Both the position numbers and the translations under genes were made by a program. The notes under the pieces are model-generated. The model was given only the letters and a program-made list of their open reading frames with translations, searched no databases and was not told the DNA's origin. This document shows positions 9,504-20,249 of a DNA stretch of 34,660 nucleotides, piece after piece; the stretch's first letter is position 1, and every line of letters starts with the position of its first letter. The DNA is from Desulfovibrio sp. (lineage in GTDB: Bacteria; Bacillota; Dethiobacteria; DTU022), in contig JAGUZX010000117.1 of NCBI GenBank assembly GCA_020060545.1, forward strand, positions 1-34,660, given 5' to 3'.

Positions 9504-10085
9504 TTAAGATGTGAGCGCTTCAATATAAACATATGCCGCCTGCAGCGCCTCCGTGGGGCAAAGCGGAAAGCATTCCTTGCAGTTCCAGCATTCTTTGGAG
9601 GCTATCTCCGGGATAAAGCTGATTTCCCGGCTGGCCCCCCGGTTGACAAACCCGACGGCGTGCTTCTGCTTCACCTCGGCGCAGTACCTGACGCACAGGC
9701 CGCAATGAATGCAGAACGAGGCCTCTTTTTCAAAACGGTCTTTGTCCGCGCCGTATTTATGCGCCAAATCCTTTAAGTCCCTGGCGTCAGGAGCGTGAGA
9801 CAGCAGCAGCTGCAAGATCATCTTGCGAATGCGATCTACCTTCTCGGACCTGGTTCTCACCGCCAGGTTTTTTTCGACCGGGTAAAGGCAGGCGGCAACC
9901 AGCCTGGTGCGGCCGTTTGATTCCGCTTCGACCGTGCAGATGCGGCAAGCCCCGTAAGGATCCAGTTTCGCATGGTGGCAGAGGGTCGGGATGACAATCC
10001 CCGCACTTTGCGCCGCCTCCAAGATGGTCATGCCTGCCCTGGCTTCAACATCTCTTCCATCGATTTTTAGAAGGATCTTGCTCAT
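9504..10085 (-). CDS. bamI: BamI: NuoG-like iron-sulfur subunit of class II benzoyl-CoA reductase
   Basis: A 193-residue iron-sulfur protein resembling the N-terminal part of NuoG/HoxU. It starts with a [2Fe-2S] ferredoxin fold (ILEAAQSAGIVIPTLCHHA, then YGACRICTVE and AACLYPV) and ends with two [4Fe-4S] motifs, CIHCGLCVRYCAEV and CWNCKECFPLCPTEAL. In the Bam complex the NuoEFG-like subunits BamGHI are thought to connect NADH with the electron-bifurcating core. Its ATG overlaps the bamH stop (ATGA, 10082-10085), so it is translationally coupled. It is the last gene of the operon; a convergent gene and a hairpin follow. Assignment as BamI rests on gene order as well as domain content; in isolation it could be called a hydrogenase diaphorase small subunit. 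Confidence 0.85.
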   Translation of the reverse strand: MSKILLKIDGRDVEARAGMTILEAAQSAGIVIPTLCHHAKLDPYGACRICTVEAESNGRTRLVAACLYPVEKNLAVRTRSEKVDRIRKMILQLLLSHAPDARDLKDLAHKYGADKDRFEKEASFCIHCGLCVRYCAEVKQKHAVGFVNRGASREISFIPEIASKECWNCKECFPLCPTEALQAAYVYIEALTS

Positions 10086-12010
10086 TTTTCTTTACTCCCC
10101 CTGCTGATCGTTCTTTCTTCTTCAGGGATCGGAGGCGGCACAGGCGCGCCGGAAATTTTCCGCACCGCGCCAAAACGTGAGGGGCATACTTCAAAGCAGG
10201 TATTGCACTTGGTGCATTTTGCCTGGTCAATGACATGGATCTTGTTCTTGCCGCCTAGAATCGCCTCTGAAGGGCATTTCCTGAGGCACGCCATGCAGGC
10301 CTGGCACCTGCCCGGGTCGATATGGTACGCGATGAGCGCCTTGCAGGAAAGGGCCGGGCACCTCTTTTCCCTGATGTGCGCTTCATACTCGTCTCTGAAA
10401 TACTGCAAAGTGCTCAAGAAGGGGTTGGGGGCGGTCTGGCCCAAAGCGCAAAGCGCGGCATCGCCCGCCACCTCGGCCAGCTCCTCCAGAAGCTCGATGT
10501 CGCCCTCTTTTCCCTTGCCCAGCGTGATATTGGTGAGTATTTTGAGCATCTGCCTGATCCCCTCACGGCAAGGAACGCACTTGCCGCACGATTCGTCGGT
10601 GAGGAAGTTCAGGAAATACCTGGCCACATCAACCATGCAGGTGTCTTCATCCATGACGATCATCCCGCCTGAACCCATCATCGAACCGGCTTTGCTGAGC
10701 TCATCAAAACCGACTGCCAGGTCCAGCAACTTCTCGGGGATGCAACCGCCGGACGGCCCCCCGGTCTGCACCGCCTTGAACTTCTTGCCGCCGGGGATGC
10801 CGCCGCCGATCTTGTAGATAATGTCCCGCAGGGTGATCCCCATCGGCACCTCCACCAGGCCGGTATGGTTAATCTTGCCGACCAGCGAGAAAATCTTGGT
10901 GCCCTTGCTTTTTTCCGTGCCAAACTGGGCGAACCAGTCCGCGCCCTTGTTGATGATCGGCGGCACATTGGCCCAGGTCTCCACGTTGTTCAGCACGGTC
11001 GGTTTCTCCCAAAGACCCTTGATGTTGGAGCGGATATATTTCGGCCTGGGTTCTCCCGCCTTGCCTTCCAGGGCGGTCATCAGGGCGCTCGATTCGCCGC
11101 AGACGAAAGCGCCGGCGCCCTGGTGCACTTTAACCGTAAAATTAAAACCTGAGCCAAGGATGTTTTCCCCGAGGAAACCATACTCCTCAGCCTGCCTGAT
11201 CGCAACACCTACGTTTTCCACCGCCAGGGGATATTCCTGCCGGACATAGATATAGCCTTCCCGGGCGCCGATGGCATAGGCCCCGAGGGTCAGCCCTTCA
11301 AGCACGGAGTGGGGATTGCCCTCGAGGAGGCTCCGGTCCATGTACGCTCCGGGGTCCCCCTCGTCCGCATTGACGATCACATATTTGATGTCACCGGGGG
11401 CATTGCGGGATCCTTCCCATTTTACGCCCGCGGGGAAGCCGCCGCCGCCCCTTCCTCTTAAGTTCGATTTTTTCACTTCCTCCAATACCTGTTCGGGGGT
11501 CATCCGGGTAAGGGCTTTGGCCAATGCGCCGTAACCGCCAAGCGCCAGGTAGTCATCGATGCTCCTGGGATCAATTTTAATGTTGGAGCCGAATATCAGC
11601 CGCTGCTGGTTCTTGTAAAAGGGGATTTCAGATTCATGGACGATCTTTTCACCGGTTCCGGGGTCGGTATAAAGCAAACGCTCGATTACCTTTTTCTCCT
11701 TGATCGTCTGGGAAACGATTTCGGGGATATCCTCAGGCTGTATCTGTAAATAACAGATTTCATCCGGGTAAATAACGATAATCGGGCCCCTCTCGCAAAA
11801 ACCGTGGCAGCCGGTCTTCCTGATTTCCACCTCGCCGCCCAGGCCCTGTTTCGCAATCTCCGCTTCGATCCGCGCGGCGACCTGTTTGCTGCCACAAGCG
11901 TGGCAGGCGGACCCGGAACAGAGGGTAATCCAACGTTTTTGGGGGTCCCGCTTCGACAGGAGGCTTGCCTTGAGTTCTTCCAATTCAGCAACCGATTTTA
12001 TCCGTGCCAT
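10082..12010 (-). CDS. bamH: BamH: NuoF-like flavoprotein subunit
   Basis: A 642-residue NADH-binding flavoprotein. The order of domains is: thioredoxin-like [2Fe-2S] region (CSGSACHACG near residue 31 and GCHGFCERGP), the NuoF Rossmann and FMN core (GRGGGGFPAGVKW, NADEGDPGAYMDR, GAFVCGESSALM), a ubiquitin-like SLBB strand region, the [4Fe-4S] helix ESCGKCVPCREG, and a C-terminal 2x[4Fe-4S] ferredoxin (CQACMACLRKCP and CTKCNTCFEVCP). This is the long NuoF form found in bifurcating hydrogenases and in BamH. It should oxidise or reduce NAD(H) and pass electrons to BamG, BamI and BamE. The ATG at 12010 follows GGGAAGATT; the gap to bamG is 18 bases. Confidence 0.9.
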   Translation of the reverse strand: MARIKSVAELEELKASLLSKRDPQKRWITLCSGSACHACGSKQVAARIEAEIAKQGLGGEVEIRKTGCHGFCERGPIIVIYPDEICYLQIQPEDIPEIVSQTIKEKKVIERLLYTDPGTGEKIVHESEIPFYKNQQRLIFGSNIKIDPRSIDDYLALGGYGALAKALTRMTPEQVLEEVKKSNLRGRGGGGFPAGVKWEGSRNAPGDIKYVIVNADEGDPGAYMDRSLLEGNPHSVLEGLTLGAYAIGAREGYIYVRQEYPLAVENVGVAIRQAEEYGFLGENILGSGFNFTVKVHQGAGAFVCGESSALMTALEGKAGEPRPKYIRSNIKGLWEKPTVLNNVETWANVPPIINKGADWFAQFGTEKSKGTKIFSLVGKINHTGLVEVPMGITLRDIIYKIGGGIPGGKKFKAVQTGGPSGGCIPEKLLDLAVGFDELSKAGSMMGSGGMIVMDEDTCMVDVARYFLNFLTDESCGKCVPCREGIRQMLKILTNITLGKGKEGDIELLEELAEVAGDAALCALGQTAPNPFLSTLQYFRDEYEAHIREKRCPALSCKALIAYHIDPGRCQACMACLRKCPSEAILGGKNKIHVIDQAKCTKCNTCFEVCPSRFGAVRKISGAPVPPPIPEEERTISRGSKEK

Positions 12011-12028: not shown

Positions 12029-12523
12029 TTACTCATAATTTTTTAACACGTCCGCCGTCCCGGACGGCGACATCTTGCCGTGCGTCTTCCCGTCGACCTC
12101 CATCACCGGGCCCAAAGCACAGCAGCCGAGGCAGCCGACCGTTTCCAGGCTGAACTTCAAGTCGAGGTCGGTTTCGCCTGGTTTGATGCCGGTCAGATCC
12201 TGCACCGTATCGAGGACACGCTGCGCGCCGCGGACATGACAGGCGGTGCCCATGCAAATGTGAATTTCATGGCGCCCCTTGGGAACCAGGCTGAAGGCCT
12301 TATAAAAAGTGGCGATATGTTGGATCCGGGTTAAAGGAACCTGCAGTTTTTCGCTGACCCTCTCCAGCGCTTCCTTGGGCAGCCAGCGGTTTTCGCTCTG
12401 GATCTCCAGCAAGACTTGAATGAGCGAGCTGGCTTCGCCGTGGTGTTTGTCGATAATCTGGTCAATTCTGGCGTTATCCATGGCTTCTATGTCAACCTCC
12501 TTTGCCTGATCCACTGCCTGCAA
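12029..12523 (-). CDS. bamG: BamG: NuoE-like [2Fe-2S] subunit
   Basis: A thioredoxin-like [2Fe-2S] protein of the NuoE family. Cluster ligands are in ICMGTACHVRGA and VGCLGCCALGPVM, and the helical N-terminal region contains LLEIQSENRWLPKEAL and IATFYKAFSLVPKG, all standard for NuoE. It works with BamH as the NADH-side electron module. The start is uncertain: TTG at 12523 gives 164 residues; ATG at 12481 gives 150 residues, the more usual length, with a GGAGG 14 bases upstream. It sits 20 bases after bamF (or 62, with the later start) and 18 before bamH. Confidence 0.88.
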   Translation of the reverse strand: MQAVDQAKEVDIEAMDNARIDQIIDKHHGEASSLIQVLLEIQSENRWLPKEALERVSEKLQVPLTRIQHIATFYKAFSLVPKGRHEIHICMGTACHVRGAQRVLDTVQDLTGIKPGETDLDLKFSLETVGCLGCCALGPVMEVDGKTHGKMSPSGTADVLKNYE

Positions 12524-12543: not shown

Positions 12544-13311
12544 CTACGCGAGAACGAAGCGCTTCCCGCTTTCATCGTACCTGACCAGCCCCTGCCTGGC
12601 CGAACTGCTGAGGTGCCTCGATATTTCTGACGGGGTCAGGCCTAAAATGGCGGACATTTCTCCAGTGGAAAGGGGCTTTTCCCGCAGGAGCAAGACAATC
12701 TGGCTGATCGCCAGTTTACCGGCAATTAATTCCCGAAACAGCCGCTCAAGCTCCTCACTGGAGTAGAATGCCTGGTATTCTTCGATTGTGGTGAAATGGA
12801 CCCTCAGCCTCTCACTTTCCACCAGCCTGATGTAGGGGATTAGTTTGGTAAACGCTTTCAGTTTCAGTTTGAGACCGTTTTCATCTATTCCTTCCCCTTG
12901 GCCAAGAGGCCCTAATTCCTTCACCTGCTTGATGAAATGATCAACAACTTCGGCAAAGAGGTTTCCTTCACCGGAGGACATGAATTCGATCTTCAACCTC
13001 TCCGGGTTAAGGCCCAGGTGGGCCATGATTTTCTTGAACAGGAGCACCTTGTTCAAGGCATGGTAATTGCCATGGGTAATATAGTTGCACTCATTTAAAC
13101 GGCAGCCGCCGATAAACACCCCGTCCGATCCCTTGGAGAAAGCCCTGAGTACATGTGCCAGGTCGACTCTGCCGGTGCACATGACTCTGATCAGCCTGAT
13201 TTCAGTTGTGTATTGCAGTCTGGAAACTCCAGCCAGGTCAGCAGCGCCGTACCCTCACCACTGGCAGACAAACCCGATAATTCTTGGTTTAAACTTGAGC
13301 CCTGTACTCAT
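12544..13311 (-). CDS. bamF: BamF: MvhD-like selenoprotein with C-terminal winged helix
   Basis: The reading frame opens at ATG 13311 (AAGGAGG ten bases upstream) and continues through an in-frame TGA at 13257-13255 to a stop at 12544; with the TGA read as selenocysteine it is 255 residues. The N-terminal 140 residues are MvhD/FlxD-like: GFVCQW-Sec-GYGAADLAG, RVMCTGRVD and GGCRLNECNY, where homologues have NWC at the Sec site. MvhD carries electrons between a partner enzyme and HdrA, here BamE. Residues about 190-255 (LSTGEMSAILGLTPSEISRH, then SARQGLVRYDESGKRF) are a winged-helix DNA-binding-like domain. The gap to bamE is 32 bases. Automated annotation would probably start the protein at an internal ATG (13182) and lose the Sec. 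Confidence 0.88.
13220..13257 (-). promoter_or_regulatory. bamF selenocysteine TGA and SECIS-like hairpin
   Basis: The Sec codon is TGA at 13257-13255 (codon 19). Twenty-two bases after it a hairpin CTGGA-GTT-TCCAG can form (13232-13220), with GU in the apical loop, as bacterial SECIS elements have. Distance and loop fit the general bacterial pattern; the stem is short, so the structure is inferred. Confidence 0.65.
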
Positions 13312-13343: not shown

Positions 13344-16300
13344 TTAAACCACCGCTTGATCGCGTTCGGCGCTCTCTTCCTCCAGGAGTGCCGCGTCGAT
13401 CTGGCTCAAGATTTCGTCGTCGGTAAAGTGCTTGAGCTGGATCGCCCCCGTCGGGCACTTGGCGTTGCAGAGGCCGTCTCCCTTGCACAGAACAGGATTA
13501 ACCGCGGCCTTCCTGCCCAGCGGGGTCTCCCGGAATTCGATGGCGCCGTACTTGCAGGCGGCGATGCACGCGCCGCACGAAATGCATTTGTTTTCGTCCA
13601 CCGCGCAGATGGAGCCGGAGGCGGTGACCGTATCGCTGGAGAGAAGCGTCAGGACCCGGCCCGCCGCTCCGTAAGCCTGGCTGACCGTTTCCTTGATCAG
13701 CTTGGGATAGTGCGCGATCCCGCAAAGATAAACGCCCTCCGCGGCAAACTCAACCGGCCTCAGCTTGACGTGGGCTTCTTTGAAGAAGCCGTCCGGGTTC
13801 AAGCCCACCTTGAACAGGTTTTCCAATTCCCGGGCCCCCGCGGCAGGAATGATGGCGGCAGCCAGGGCGATGATATCGGCATCCAGCTCGAGTTTCTTGC
13901 CCAGCACATAATCGGTCGCGGTAACCTTCAAGATACTCTTGCCGCCTTCCGCAACCGCTTCCACCAGCGGCGGATCATGCGGTTCATAACGGATGAACCG
14001 GACCTCTTTTCCCGCCGCCTCCCGGTAATAATCCTCGTTATACCCGTATGTCCGGATATCGCGGAAGAGGATGTAAACATCCGTCCCGGGGTTGATCGCT
14101 TTCAGCTTCAGCGCGTTCTTGATCGACTCGCTGCAGCAGATCCGGCTGCAGTAGTTCCGGTCTTCATTGCGGCAGCCGACGCACTGGATCATCACGACGC
14201 TTGCCGCGTTCGTTACCTTTGCGTCACCTTTGGCGATCCGCTCCTCCAGGTCGAGGTGGGTCATGACGCGTTCGTCTTCCCCGTAAAGGTATTCGGCGGG
14301 CGTATAGATATCGGCGCCCACGGCGATAACGGTTGCGCCATGTTTGATTTCAAAGACCCTTCCTTCAGACCGCACCACGGTTACGAAATTGCCCACATAA
14401 CCGGCGGCATCGCTGATGGCCGCGCCGGTATAGACATGGATGAGGGGGTGCCGGTATACCTTTTTGATCAGATCGCGCAAATACGCCTGGACATCCAACC
14501 CTTCGAGAGTGTCATGAATGCGTCGCGCCGTGCCTCCCAGCTCTGTCTCCTTCTCCACCAGGTGAACCTCGTGCCCCTGCCCGGCGATGGAGAGAGCGCA
14601 GGTCATGCCGGCGATCCCTCCCCCGACCACCAGCGCCGCCTTGTTTACCGGCAGCTCAATCTCCATGAGCGGCTCCAAATGGCGGGACCGGGCCACCGAC
14701 ATCCGGATCAGATCCTTCGCCTTCCGGGTGGCTTCTTCCTTTTCCTTGGGGTGGACCCAGGAGCAATGTTCCCTGATATTGGCCATTTCGTAATAATATT
14801 GATTCAGCCCCGCCTCCCGGAGGGTATCCCTGAACAACGCTTCAAGAGTCCGGGGGGAGCAGGCGGCGACGATCACCCGGTTGAGCCCTTTTTCCTTGAT
14901 CATGTCCGTGATCTCTCCGGCACAATTGGTGGCGCATGAAAACAGCTGTTCCTGGGCGTGGACGACATTGGGCAGGGTTTTGCAGTATTCAACCGCTTCA
15001 GGGACATTGACGATCCTGCCGATATTGGCCCCGCAATGGCAGACAAAGACCCCGATCCTGGGTTCCTCCCCCGAGGCATCCCTCTCCGGCGGGTAGACCC
15101 TCTCCCTGGCCAGATCCCCTCTCCTGGCGGTGAGGAGCTCGCCGCACCGGGAGCCGGCCCCGCTGGCGGAAAAAACCGACTCGGGGATGTCGACCGGACC
15201 CTGGAAAGCCCCGCTGATGAAGATCCCCGGCCGGGAGGTCTCCACCGGATTAACCGGATCGGTTTGACAGAACCCGTGCCCGTTGAGCTCGATCTTGAAT
15301 TTATCCGCCAGGTCCTTGAAATCGGCGGGAGGGTTCAACCCGACGGACAGCACCACCATATCGAATTCCTCTTCTTTGACTCCATCGGCGGTGGTCGCGT
15401 AGCGGATCGTGACGCTCTTCGTTTCCGGGTTCTCTCTTACCACCGATACATAGCTCCTGATAAACCGCACCCCGGGAAGGCTCTCCGCCCTCTGGTAGAA
15501 GCGCTCGAAATCCTTCCCGTAGGATCGGATATCGTTATGGAAGACGGCACACTCGGCCGCGGCGTCATGGTCCTTGGTCAGGATCACCTGTTTCTGGGTA
15601 TAGGTGCAGCATACGGCGGAGCAGTAGCTGCTGCCGCCCGGTGTAACCTGCCTGGAACCGACGCATTGAATCCAGGCGATCTTGTGCGGATGTTTCAAGT
15701 CGGAAGAGCGCAGCACCTCGCCTTCGTATGGGCCGGTGGCGCATAACAGCCGTTCGTAATCCATGCTGGTTACCACGTTCGCAAACTTGCCGTAGCCATA
15801 GTCCTCCCGCAGCCGGGGGTCAAAGGGCTCAAATCCGGGAGCCAGGACGATCGCCCCCGCTTTTATCTCTACCTTCTCCGCCGTCTGATTAAAATCGATG
15901 GCGTTATTCTTGCAAACCGCTTCGCAAATCCGGCATTTTTTCTCCTTGAGGTAAAGGCAGCTTTCGTCGATATAAGTGATCAGGGGAATCGCCTGGGAGT
16001 AATAGATATGGATCGCCTTATTCTTCGAGATGGCCTGGTTAAACTGATCGGGGTATTTGACCGGGCAGTATTCCACACAGACAGTGCAGCCGGTGCATTT
16101 GTCCTCCAGAACATACCTGGGCTTTTTAGTCAGCGTGACTTTGAAATTTCCCGGTTCCCCTTCCAGGCTGTCAACTTCGGTATAGGTTAGGACCTCGATA
16201 TTGGTATGCCGGTCGACCTCGACCAGTTTGGGCGAGAGTATTCACATGGAGCAGTCGTTGGTGGGAAAGGTCTTGTCAAGCTGGGCCATATGGCCGCCGA

Positions 16301-16484
16301 TGGCCGGCCCTTTCTCCACCAGGTAAACCTTGAAACCGGCATTGGCAAGATCCAGCGAAGCCTGAATGCCGCTGATCCCGCCGCCGGCAACTAAAACATC
16401 CCCAAAATTGGCGCCGGCAAGGCTTTTTGCATGCCGCTCCTTGGCTCTTTCCATTCCTGTTACTGCCGGTACTTTAATGTTCAC
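13344..16484 (-). CDS. bamE: BamE: tandem HdrA-like flavo-selenoprotein
   Basis: The reading frame runs from GTG 16484 through an in-frame TGA at 16244-16242 to 13344; read as selenocysteine it gives 1046 residues. Module 1: FAD site [20 protein letters not shown], then [18 protein letters not shown][12 protein letters not shown] (HdrA proteins have Cys at this site), and ferredoxin motifs [12 protein letters not shown] and [12 protein letters not shown]. Module 2 is a complete Hdr[27 protein letters not shown], a second FAD site [16 protein letters not shown], and [19 protein letters not shown]. It ends in a 2x[4Fe-4S] ferredoxin ([12 protein letters not shown] and [10 protein letters not shown]). 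This is the probable flavin-based electron-bifurcation site of the Bam complex. GAGGTGA precedes the GTG start. Repeats fill the 83-base gap to bamD. Confidence 0.9.
16209..16244 (-). promoter_or_regulatory. bamE selenocysteine TGA and SECIS-like hairpin
   Basis: The Sec codon is TGA at 16244-16242 (codon 81). Fifteen bases downstream CTGGTCG (16226-16220) pairs with CGACCGG (16215-16209), closing a four-base AGGT loop. A seven-pair stem with GGU in the loop at this distance is what a bacterial SECIS needs. Confidence 0.7.
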
Positions 16485-16517: not shown

Positions 16518-16572
16518 AGGTGTGTCCCCTTACCATGGGGACATACCTCCCCAGGAGGTGTGTCCCCTTACC
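16518..16572. repeat. GTGTGTCCCC repeat cluster between bamD and bamE
   Basis: AGGTGTGTCCCCTTACC occurs exactly at 16518-16534 and 16556-16572, with an inverted near-copy of its core (GGGGACATACCT) at 16536-16547. Direct and inverted copies can pair into alternative hairpins. The right copy overlaps the TAA stop of bamD (16568-16570), so the element begins inside the gene end. It resembles small dispersed repeats of this type in other Firmicute genomes. Confidence 0.7.
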
Positions 16573-17722
16573 TTATCACTTCTTGGATAATCTCCGTGAT
16601 CTCCTTGACCTGGATGACATCCTCATAATTTAAGCCCAGCCTGCTGTCCTCGAGAGCGGTGAGGCAATAGGGACACGCTGTAACCAGCACTTCGGCCCCC
16701 AGCCCGCCGGCTTCTTTTATTCTTAAGTTGGAGAACCGGTCGGACATCTTGGTATCAATCCAGATCCTGCCTCCTCCCATGCCGCAGCAGAGGCTGTTTT
16801 CCCTCGACTCCTCCATCTCTTGCAGTTCCAAGCCGGGGATCCTTTTTAAGACCCCCCGCGGGGCGTCGTAGATGCCGTTATGCCGGCCCAGGTAGCACGG
16901 ATCATGATAGGTCACTTTTTTATGATACTCCTTGCTGATTTTAAGCCTGCCCTCATTAATCAGCTCGCCCAGGTACTGGGAGATGTGAACCACCTCAAAG
17001 TTGACCTTGAACCCGGCATAGTCGTTCTTGAACGCGTGGTAGCAATGAGGGGAAGAAACAAGAATTTTCTTCACCCCGTGATCAATAAAAGACTTGATGT
17101 TTTCCCTGGCCAGCTGTTTGAACAGCGCCTCGTGGCCTGTCTTGCGGATGCTTTCCCCGCAGCAGCTCTCCCCGGCGCCCAGGATCCCGAAATCGACCCC
17201 CGCCTGGTTGAGGATGCCGGCCGTGGCCTGCGCCACCTTCTTCAATTGCCCGTCGTAGCTTAAAAAGCAGCAGGGAAAATATAATATTTCCATCCCTTCG
17301 GTAAACGGTTTTACCGAGAGCCCCTCCGCCCAATCCGCCCTCTTGGCCCGTTCTTCCCCGAAGGGGTTGCCTTCAGCGGCAAGGCTTGCGCTTGCGGAGC
17401 GGACCGGCTTGAGAAAGGCTGGGGTAACACCGTACGCGTTGGCGATCCGGCGCAGGGCGACCATGTCTTCGATCTGCTTGACGTCCCTGGGGCATTGCTG
17501 GGGGCACTTACCGCAGGTGGTGCAGCGCCAGACCTCTTCGCGGTCAATTTCGGGAAAGCCGAATGTAGCCTCGCGGATCAGCTTGCGCATACTGAAATTG
17601 ATCACCCTGTTCCAGGGACAGACACTGTCGCATTTGCCGCATTGATAGCAGTACTTGACGGCATCCCCGCCGCTCTCTTTGATCTCTTCGATGACCTCTC
17701 TGATCGGGGCTTCGGTATCCAC
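16568..17722 (-). CDS. bamD: BamD: HdrD-like iron-sulfur subunit with two CCG domains
   Basis: A 384-residue protein equal to a fused HdrC plus HdrB, as in HdrD and BamD. Two [4Fe-4S] motifs open it (CYQCGKCDSVCP at residues 25-36 and CTTCGKCPQQCP at 67-78). Two cysteine-rich CCG domains follow: FPCCFLSYDG with ESCCGES, and HDPCYLGRHNGIYD with SLCCGMGGG and TACPYCLTAL; in HdrB these hold noncubane [4Fe-4S] clusters. It should relay electrons between BamE and the BamBC catalytic pair. The start is GTG 17722 with AAGGGAT upstream; the gap to bamC is 30 bases. No selenocysteine codon interrupts it. Confidence 0.88.
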   Translation of the reverse strand: MDTEAPIREVIEEIKESGGDAVKYCYQCGKCDSVCPWNRVINFSMRKLIREATFGFPEIDREEVWRCTTCGKCPQQCPRDVKQIEDMVALRRIANAYGVTPAFLKPVRSASASLAAEGNPFGEERAKRADWAEGLSVKPFTEGMEILYFPCCFLSYDGQLKKVAQATAGILNQAGVDFGILGAGESCCGESIRKTGHEALFKQLARENIKSFIDHGVKKILVSSPHCYHAFKNDYAGFKVNFEVVHISQYLGELINEGRLKISKEYHKKVTYHDPCYLGRHNGIYDAPRGVLKRIPGLELQEMEESRENSLCCGMGGGRIWIDTKMSDRFSNLRIKEAGGLGAEVLVTACPYCLTALEDSRLGLNYEDVIQVKEITEIIQEVIR

Positions 17723-17752: not shown

Positions 17753-18292
17753 TTATGCCTTCTGGGACATGCGGGCCACGCTGTCCATGAGATTCTGCAG
17801 CCCATATTTGTCAACCAGCGCTTTCAACCCGGTCTCCATCTCGTCCGGCACCGCTTCTTCTTCTACTTCCTCTTCCCTTTCTTCGTAAGTGAGGGCGTCG
17901 TTGATGCACCACTTCACGCACAGGGGCTCTTCCTGCGGCGGATCGTCTTCACACATATCGCATTTGAGAGGGAGGCCGGAATCGGGTTCCTTGAAAGCGT
18001 CCCGGGAGGGGCAGGAAGCCCTGCAGAAGGAGCACTCGTCGTATTCTTTCCCGTCGATGACATATTTGTCCCTGCCCATGCACTCGGCGGCGGTATACTC
18101 ACCCGCGTAGACAGGAAGATAGACGTCTTGCAGCGGTTCGCGGATCAGCCGGATCCGGGCCCTCGCCGGGTTGCTGCTGCTGTATTTCGGCGAAGCGTGA
18201 AATGCGGAGCAGATTACCTCGCAGGCCCGGCAGCCGTTGCACTTATCGAGATCGATCTTGATGACCTTAACTTTCTTCTTCACTTTGCCCAT
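17753..18292 (-). CDS. bamC: BamC: polyferredoxin partner of BamB
   Basis: A 179-residue ferredoxin-like protein with Cys motifs for about three [4Fe-4S] clusters: CNGCRACEVICSAFH, CSFCRASCPSRDAFK and CDMC paired with PLCVKWCINDAL. This is the electron-transfer small subunit known to copurify with BamB. An acidic stretch (YEEREEEVEEEAVPDE) lies near the C-terminus. The ATG at 18292 is preferred over an upstream in-frame start because AGAGGGA precedes it and the product then begins MGKVKKKVKVIKIDL; it overlaps the bamB end by 26 bases, which points to translational coupling. Confidence 0.88.
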   Translation of the reverse strand: MGKVKKKVKVIKIDLDKCNGCRACEVICSAFHASPKYSSSNPARARIRLIREPLQDVYLPVYAGEYTAAECMGRDKYVIDGKEYDECSFCRASCPSRDAFKEPDSGLPLKCDMCEDDPPQEEPLCVKWCINDALTYEEREEEVEEEAVPDEMETGLKALVDKYGLQNLMDSVARMSQKA

Positions 18293-20249
18293 TATTGTCA
18301 ATCCCTCTCTTTGCGAAGTCAGCGCTGATGTAATCCATCCCCAGTTCATGCAGGGACTCTTTGGTGGGAATACCTTCTTTGTTAAACCCTTTCAGCTTGT
18401 AATACGCATCCAGGAGCCGGGTTTCAAGCTCGGGAAATCTCTTCTTCCAGTGGTTCTCCGGGGGGCGATCGTCTTCTCTTCTTAAGCCCCTCCGGACATT
18501 AATCGCTCGCAGCAAAGTCCGGTTCCTTTTGGCTATTTTCCACAGCGCGTCTTTGTCGATGTCCATCCCGGTCGCCGCGGAGATCAAGATCGGAAAATTG
18601 TGAATATGGTAGGGCGGCTTCAATGGAAATGACGACAAACCGGCGCACATCCCGAGGGCGTCATCAATGTAGTGCATCGTCTCCTGCCAGTCCACAATTT
18701 CACAGGTTGCTTCAACCGTCGGGTAATAGGGAAATGAATTCTCCCCGCGCGGTTCCCAGTTTAAAAAATACTCCTTAATCTTTTCATCGGGAACATGGAC
18801 CCAATCCTTGACGAACGCTTCTCGCTCCTCCCGCGTTTCAAAAGGCGCCTGCGGGAAATTCCCTTCGATTTGGGTGATGTTGATCTTCTCGCCGGTAGCC
18901 CACATCAGGAAATAAATGGGGTTCAGCATTGACAGCTTGAGCGGCAGCTGCTCATGTTTTTTGATCGTGTTGTGGTCGTACGCCTCCGCCCCCTTGCCGA
19001 TCTGGCGGGCCGCCCAGTAGACGCCATTGGCCAAAACATCGCCGATCCCTTCCCGCCGCACGATGCGGTCGAGCAGCCAGTAAAATTTGCCCTCGTTATC
19101 GGACGGCATCCCTGCAAAATCCTGGTCGGTCAAGATGCCGGCTTCATAAAGCTCCAGGGCGAAAGCCATCACCTGCGGGGTTGAGAATCCGTCCACGCCG
19201 TACTCCGTGGCGCGCTGGGCGATTCGAAAACCAAAATCGAGGTCGGAATAGGCCGCCATGGTATAAGTGAGCTTGGAGAAGCATTTCATCATATAGGTTG
19301 AAATCCCCGGAACGGAGATAATGGCCCCGCATTTCATCGGGCAGTTGTAGCAGCTGATTAACCGCGTCCGCACACTTTCCTGGGTCTCCTTCCACTTCTC
19401 TTCCACATCCTTGGTCCAGTAATCTTTGATCCGCGTGCGGGCGTTTCCCCACATGAAATTCTCGGTGTGCCACTTCTCGTCATGGATTAACATCTCTTTC
19501 GGCGACCCGAGCCCGGCCAATATGGGCATCACCCCCGGAATCGGATTGCCGTCCCGGAGCGGGATATAGCGCATCACTTCGTTGCAAAGCTCCATAAATT
19601 GATCCGGCCGGGCAATATTGATATCCTTTGTCCCGCGCACGGCGATCGCTTTTAACCCTTTGTCTCCCATCACGGCGCCTATGCCGAGCCGGCTGGCGCT
19701 GGACCGGCCGTGCTCGATGGAAGCCATATAGACCCTGTTTTCGCCGGCCAGGCCGATCGCGGCCACCTGGGCGTGCGGTTCCTTCAGCTCCCGGCGGATC
19801 AGCTCCGCGGTTTCAATGGCGCCTTTGCCATGCAAATGGGAGGCGTCACGTATCTCCACCTTGTCGTTGTGAATCCACAAATAAACCAGGCTGGGGGACT
19901 TGCCGCGAATAATCACTTGGTCATAACCGGCATGCTTCAGCTCCGGTGCGAAAAATCCCCCCATCATCGAGAACGCCATGAACAAAGTCTGGGGCGAAAA
20001 CGCCGAAACAATGGTCCGGTTGGCGCCGGGAGCGGGGGTGCCGCACAAAAGGCCGGCCGCAAATATGAGCAGGTTATCAGGTGAAAAGGGTTCCACTTCC
20101 GGAGGGACCCGGTCCCATAACAGCTTGGCGTTGGTGCCCAGCCCCCCCAGGTGAAGTTCGGTCAATTTCGGGTCGGTTTCCACCCTCTCTATGTTTCCGC
20201 GTGATAAATCAATTTCTAAATTATACCCTGTTTCGGCGTACCTCATCAT
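18267..20249 (-). CDS. bamB: BamB: tungsten-containing benzoyl-CoA reductase catalytic subunit
   Basis: A 660-residue member of the aldehyde:ferredoxin oxidoreductase family. The opening MRYAETGYNLEIDLSRG, then LHLGGLGTNAKLLWDRVP, LLCGTPAPGANRTIVSAFSP and MAFSMMGGFFAPELKHAG, is the pattern I associate with BamB rather than with ordinary AORs. The [4Fe-4S] cluster ligands are SCYNCPMKCG (near residue 300) and the later Cys in DALGMCAG (near 532). BamB dearomatises benzoyl-CoA to cyclohexa-1,5-diene-1-carbonyl-CoA at a tungsten-bis-pterin centre without ATP. Two ATGs, 20249 and 20246, follow AGAGGTG; either may be the start. It heads the eight-gene operon. A related aryl-CoA could be the true substrate, and the sequence alone cannot tell. 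Confidence 0.85.
   Translation of the reverse strand: MMRYAETGYNLEIDLSRGNIERVETDPKLTELHLGGLGTNAKLLWDRVPPEVEPFSPDNLLIFAAGLLCGTPAPGANRTIVSAFSPQTLFMAFSMMGGFFAPELKHAGYDQVIIRGKSPSLVYLWIHNDKVEIRDASHLHGKGAIETAELIRRELKEPHAQVAAIGLAGENRVYMASIEHGRSSASRLGIGAVMGDKGLKAIAVRGTKDINIARPDQFMELCNEVMRYIPLRDGNPIPGVMPILAGLGSPKEMLIHDEKWHTENFMWGNARTRIKDYWTKDVEEKWKETQESVRTRLISCYNCPMKCGAIISVPGISTYMMKCFSKLTYTMAAYSDLDFGFRIAQRATEYGVDGFSTPQVMAFALELYEAGILTDQDFAGMPSDNEGKFYWLLDRIVRREGIGDVLANGVYWAARQIGKGAEAYDHNTIKKHEQLPLKLSMLNPIYFLMWATGEKINITQIEGNFPQAPFETREEREAFVKDWVHVPDEKIKEYFLNWEPRGENSFPYYPTVEATCEIVDWQETMHYIDDALGMCAGLSSFPLKPPYHIHNFPILISAATGMDIDKDALWKIAKRNRTLLRAINVRRGLRREDDRPPENHWKKRFPELETRLLDAYYKLKGFNKEGIPTKESLHELGMDYISADFAKRGIDNNGQSEEES

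Follow-up and report, generated by a model that had tools for sequence, protein, structure and literature searches.

Tungsten- and selenium-containing class II reductases have reportedly been described by Loeffler et al. in 2011, and Huwiler et al. are said to have reported selenocysteine (Sec) in the complex of Geobacter metallireducens in 2019. The bamF gene of G. metallireducens has been annotated as a hydrogenase delta subunit with a helix-turn-helix (HTH) motif (PMC1924859), and a bifurcating-complex setting has been described for Bam (PMC12096430, PMC11971306). In methanogens, MvhD hands electrons to the flavin of HdrA via a [2Fe-2S] cluster (PMC6019823). A selenoprotein motif, CxxU, has been published for the domain PF02662 (PMC13188914), and Sec is established in MvhD/VhuD as well as in HdrA, where it also occurs as CxxU (PMC13188914, PMC11227280). 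The selenoproteins reported for Desulfococcus multivorans are BamE, HdrA, and MvhD, a list in which BamF does not appear (PMC5109826). Sec in MvhD and in bam complexes is already known, and its predicted presence in the BamF protein described here is largely expected.

The window, i.e. the whole stretch of 34,660 nucleotides that was analyzed, stems from a genome most closely related, among named ones, to members of the Bacillota. It contains a complete bamBCDEFGHI operon, in which bamF is located between bamE and bamG (Table 1); its gene product is BamF of a class II benzoyl-CoA reductase, an MvhD-like electron-transfer subunit. Elsewhere in the window (8149-6165, minus strand), a thioredoxin-domain gene, named YyaL-like by eye, appears to be split over several frames, which suggests frameshifts, i.e. 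either a pseudogene or assembly errors.

Table 1. Coordinates of the bam genes and of the recoding features of bamF in the window
Feature	Position	Strand	Description
bamB	18267..20249	minus	AOR-family tungsten-enzyme subunit; AFOR_N, AFOR_C
bamC	17753..18349	minus	4Fe-4S subunit
bamD	16568..17722	minus	HdrBC-like, CCG domains
bamE	13344..16484	minus	HdrA-like; Sec TGA at residue 81 of the listed frame (NDCSM-U-ILSPK)
Shine-Dalgarno-like AAGGAGGTG	13327-13319	minus	upstream of ATG 13311; similar sites in relatives
bamF	12544..13311	minus	255 codons + stop, TGA at codon 19 read as Sec
Predicted Sec codon TGA, codon 19 (CQW-U)	13257-13255	minus	homologous sites: 94 TGA, 9 Cys
SECIS-like hairpin	13232-13220	minus	stem CUGG/CCAG, loop AGUUU; G-U 13227-13226, covarying pair 13228/13225
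bamG	12029..12523	minus	NuoE-like
bamH	10082..12010	minus	NuoF-like
bamI	9504..10085	minus	NuoG/HoxU-like ferredoxin subunit

Judged by comparison of sequences, the TGA in the 5'-part of bamF is very probably a selenocysteine codon, with hairpin-directed insertion of Sec at residue 19. The reading frame begins with the ATG at 13311-13309, runs through the codons TGC CAG TGG TGA (C-Q-W-U), and stays open past the TGA down to the stop ending at 12544. Without recoding, the listed bamF ORF (212 aa) begins with the ATG at 13182, which corresponds to codon 44, and the first 43 codons are lost. The earlier note had made the same reading: a Sec codon at position 19, a start further upstream preceded by a ribosome-binding site, and a true N-terminus 43 codons upstream of the ATG a gene finder would choose. 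All of this agrees with the minus-strand sequence, and the interval given there for the Sec feature (13257-13220) spans exactly the region from the TGA to the 3'-end of the SECIS-like hairpin. Reading codon 19 as Sec thus corrects the start of BamF. The Sec codon is easily overlooked because it precedes the start chosen by gene finders, and with a Sec codon as early as this, standard gene calling silently loses a redox-active motif.

Conservation of the TGA was analyzed in relatives from the same class (98 genomes) and in the 80 best-scoring loci of named genomes from Bacillota, Desulfobacterota, Chloroflexota, and others. Having been chosen by score, the 80 loci do not represent an unbiased census. 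In these sets, the position equivalent to codon 19 is CxW-TGA at 94 sites and CNW-Cys at nine, and no other residue or stop occurs; the TGA of bamF is therefore not a chance occurrence. In the same-class genomes, a single TGA is the sole in-frame stop of nearly all orthologous bamF genes, apart from a few exceptions of the Cys type. The Sec form has the motif C[QHTNF]WU[AGV]Y and the Cys form the motif CNWC[CS]Y; as the Cys homologs read C-N-W-C, Sec replaces the Cys of the NWC motif, as the earlier note had proposed. In locus L141, the record of which is titled Bathyarchaeota, typical bacterial-type bamEF genes with a bacterial SECIS are found, probably due to a binning error or to transfer. 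A Dethiobacter locus (L095:5001-9421) harbors tandem bamF copies 3.65 kb apart that are identical in 767 of 768 bases; bamG is also duplicated, suggesting a recent duplication or an assembly artifact.

The TGA is followed by a short SECIS-like hairpin. Counted after the TGA, nucleotides 23-26 (CUGG) pair with nucleotides 32-35 (CCAG) and enclose the loop N27-G28-U29-N30-U31. The loop starts at nucleotide 27 after the UGA, within the range of 16-37 nt published for bacterial SECIS elements (PMC10778597). Among 86 distinct sequences, G28 and U29 are invariant, the Ser codon is always TCC, and the loop bases 27 and 30 are complementary in every case (A-U in 75, C-G in 10, G-C in one). The changes of this pair are synonymous, falling on the third positions of Gly and Val codons. 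The degree of 27/30 pairing was equaled in none of 100,000 permutations, a figure that is not a strict probability, as the sequences are related; at least two different pair changes have occurred. In the nine Cys homologs, the combinations A-T, G-T, C-T, C-A, and C-C are found at these positions and the covarying pair is absent. RNAalifold, applied to the whole set, kept only two stem pairs. Because this program is uninformative on so short a hairpin, pairs were counted directly: in 24 distinct rows, 99.2% of the cells were paired compared with 89.8% after shuffling (0/500), and sliding the partners destroyed the signal. In addition, synonymous change is lower in the hairpin segment than downstream of it (pS 0.43 vs. 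0.74). The loop GGUCU of the SECIS element of Escherichia coli fdhF has the same arrangement, and the G-C form found in one locus (L112) matches it. An Rfam scan of the window yielded no SECIS match; a weak msiK match below the cut-off was taken as chance.

The Sec machinery was searched for in the source assembly, which consists of 135 contigs and is 95% complete. Full-length SelB and SelD, the latter with an in-frame TGA of its own, are encoded on contig 14. Of SelA, a remnant of 131 codons is left at the beginning of this contig (C14:80-472). It joins some 25 codons of the N-terminus, the seventh of them a TAG, to some 110 codons of the C-terminus, and most of the middle is deleted. No intact SelA was found in the source assembly, and a second search with the SelA of a relative found nothing else. 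An intact SelA is encoded by relatives, with scores above the cut-off in 26 of the 30 genomes searched. A tRNA-Sec was also not found in the source assembly, and a 30-base match on contig 43 is not a tRNA. The earlier note had held that absence of the Sec machinery would speak against its reading, and the result is divided: SelB and SelD are intact, SelA persists only in part, and the search for tRNA-Sec found none in this assembly.

These observations raise the possibility that SelA, perhaps along with tRNA-Sec, was lost recently in this lineage; UGA would then terminate translation or be misread, and bamE and bamF would be disabled with their sequences still intact. The damaged selA is the sole copy in a nearly complete assembly, and its distance of 17 kb from selB and selD differs from the relatives examined, in which selA adjoins selB in the translated loci. 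However, the assembly is fragmented and the selA remnant directly borders a contig end, and the apparently frameshifted thioredoxin-domain gene hints at assembly errors in the window itself. The missing tRNA-Sec says little because several relatives whose selA is intact also yielded none in this search. Moreover, the SECIS hairpin is intact and pN between bamF and its nearest relatives is low. As selB, selD, and both Sec-encoding bam genes are intact, we infer that real loss is less likely than damage to the contig end during assembly or the absence of a contig, and the disablement of bamE and bamF is considered unlikely. A true loss of SelA in a lineage that retains SelB and SelD as well as two bam genes with SECIS elements, the complex either dying or being made with another residue at the cluster site, appears quite unlikely. 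If SelA had been lost, Ser would be possible at this site, provided that tRNA-Sec was charged with serine but not converted.

Alternatively, the TGA could be a true stop, with a functional protein starting at the ATG of the conventional 212-aa ORF. This is very unlikely, as this protein would be missing over a quarter of the MvhD domain together with its conserved CxxC motif, and as the TGA alternates with Cys only. The read-through BamF protein matches the MvhD/FlpD family PF02662 at residues 11-134 (Pfam, E 3.4e-47; 159.9 bits vs. a cut-off of 22.3), and the match crosses the TGA; alignments with solved MvhD chains begin at residue 6 or 7 and likewise extend over this site. An AlphaFold2 model of BamF (mean pLDDT 81) resembles the solved MvhD structures 5odh_D, 8rvu_F, and 7bkb_F with target TM-scores of 0.86-0.92 (0.86 for 5odh_D). 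Within the class relatives, codons 2-18 of bamF have a pN/pS of 0.29, codons 20-43 one of 0.14, and codons 44-100 one of 0.19; the first two values indicate that the protein is under purifying selection before as well as after the TGA. Read-through of the UGA as Trp, as Cys, or by a near-cognate tRNA without Sec is highly unlikely, since covariation in the SECIS-like hairpin is restricted to genes with the TGA and another TGA in the operon, that of bamH, ends its gene normally.

The C-terminal part of BamF contains an ArsR-type winged helix (Pfam HTH_5 at residues 204-244). Against the VhuD family NF045873, BamF reaches 141 bits, which is below the curated cut-off of 215. A second type of BamF was observed in three loci (L072, L073, and L074), in which the MvhD-Sec domain is combined with a C-terminal ferredoxin-like part with two [4Fe-4S] clusters and the winged helix is missing. 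Many of the loci L137-L163 align only up to residue 197 of BamF and may represent this ferredoxin-fused type.

Actual insertion of Sec into BamF in this organism would proceed by binding of SelB and Sec-tRNA to the hairpin located 23-35 nt downstream of the UGA, which would guide Sec to residue 19. There, in the MvhD-type [2Fe-2S] domain, Sec would substitute for the second Cys of CxxC and might serve as a ligand of the cluster. By analogy to MvhD and the flavin of HdrA, BamF probably transfers electrons toward BamE inside the bifurcating complex.

The adjacent bamE gene indeed contains a second Sec codon, as the earlier note had stated (Table 1). The bamE TGA is followed by a conserved hairpin-like stretch, GGUCGAGGUCGRCC, which is absent from Cys-type bamE genes. 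Both sites could be read in 57 named loci, of which 43 encode Sec in both proteins, eight encode Sec in BamF and Cys in BamE, and six encode Cys in both; the combination of BamF-Cys with BamE-Sec was found in none of them, and a separate phylum sample is nested alike. Seven of the eight loci with Sec in BamF only belong to the Geobacter-type clade and one to a member of the Peptococcaceae (Bacillota). The comparison of the two sites suggested in the earlier note revealed nesting, but on the BamE tree a single change suffices for the BamE site and no fewer than three are needed for the BamF site. With so few events, functional coupling cannot be claimed, and covariation was rejected as proof of joint function. 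That the two Sec codons imply a selenium-tuned Hdr-Mvh electron relay, as previously proposed, is not established, as Geobacter-type operons combine Sec-BamF with Cys-BamE; joint selenium tuning of BamE and BamF is possible. From the nested pattern, with Sec-BamE found only beside Sec-BamF, an order in which selenium came into use in this complex can be proposed and tested. Some genomes (G372 and G415) contain a Sec/Sec next to a Cys/Cys bamEF pair, which is reminiscent of the Sec and Cys isoforms of hydrogenases in Methanococcus.

Altogether, strong comparative evidence is added that BamF, and not only BamE, is a selenoprotein in many anaerobic degraders of aromatic compounds. The operon shares its subunit set and the architecture of BamF, an MvhD domain with a C-terminal HTH, with the Geobacter-type class II benzoyl-CoA reductase, and the bamF loci retrieved from Geobacter and Geomonas have the TGA at the same codon; in contrast, BamE of the Geobacter type has Cys where BamE described here has Sec. 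The Sec forms of VhuD/MvhD from methanogens and Asgard archaea share PF02662, the CxxU motif, and a neighboring HdrA with CxxU. They differ in that the SECIS element of bamF is of the bacterial type and located inside the reading frame, whereas the archaeal element is located in the 3'-UTR. Furthermore, BamF has an additional winged-helix domain, and its partner is an AOR-type tungsten subunit instead of the hydrogenase that accompanies the archaeal proteins.
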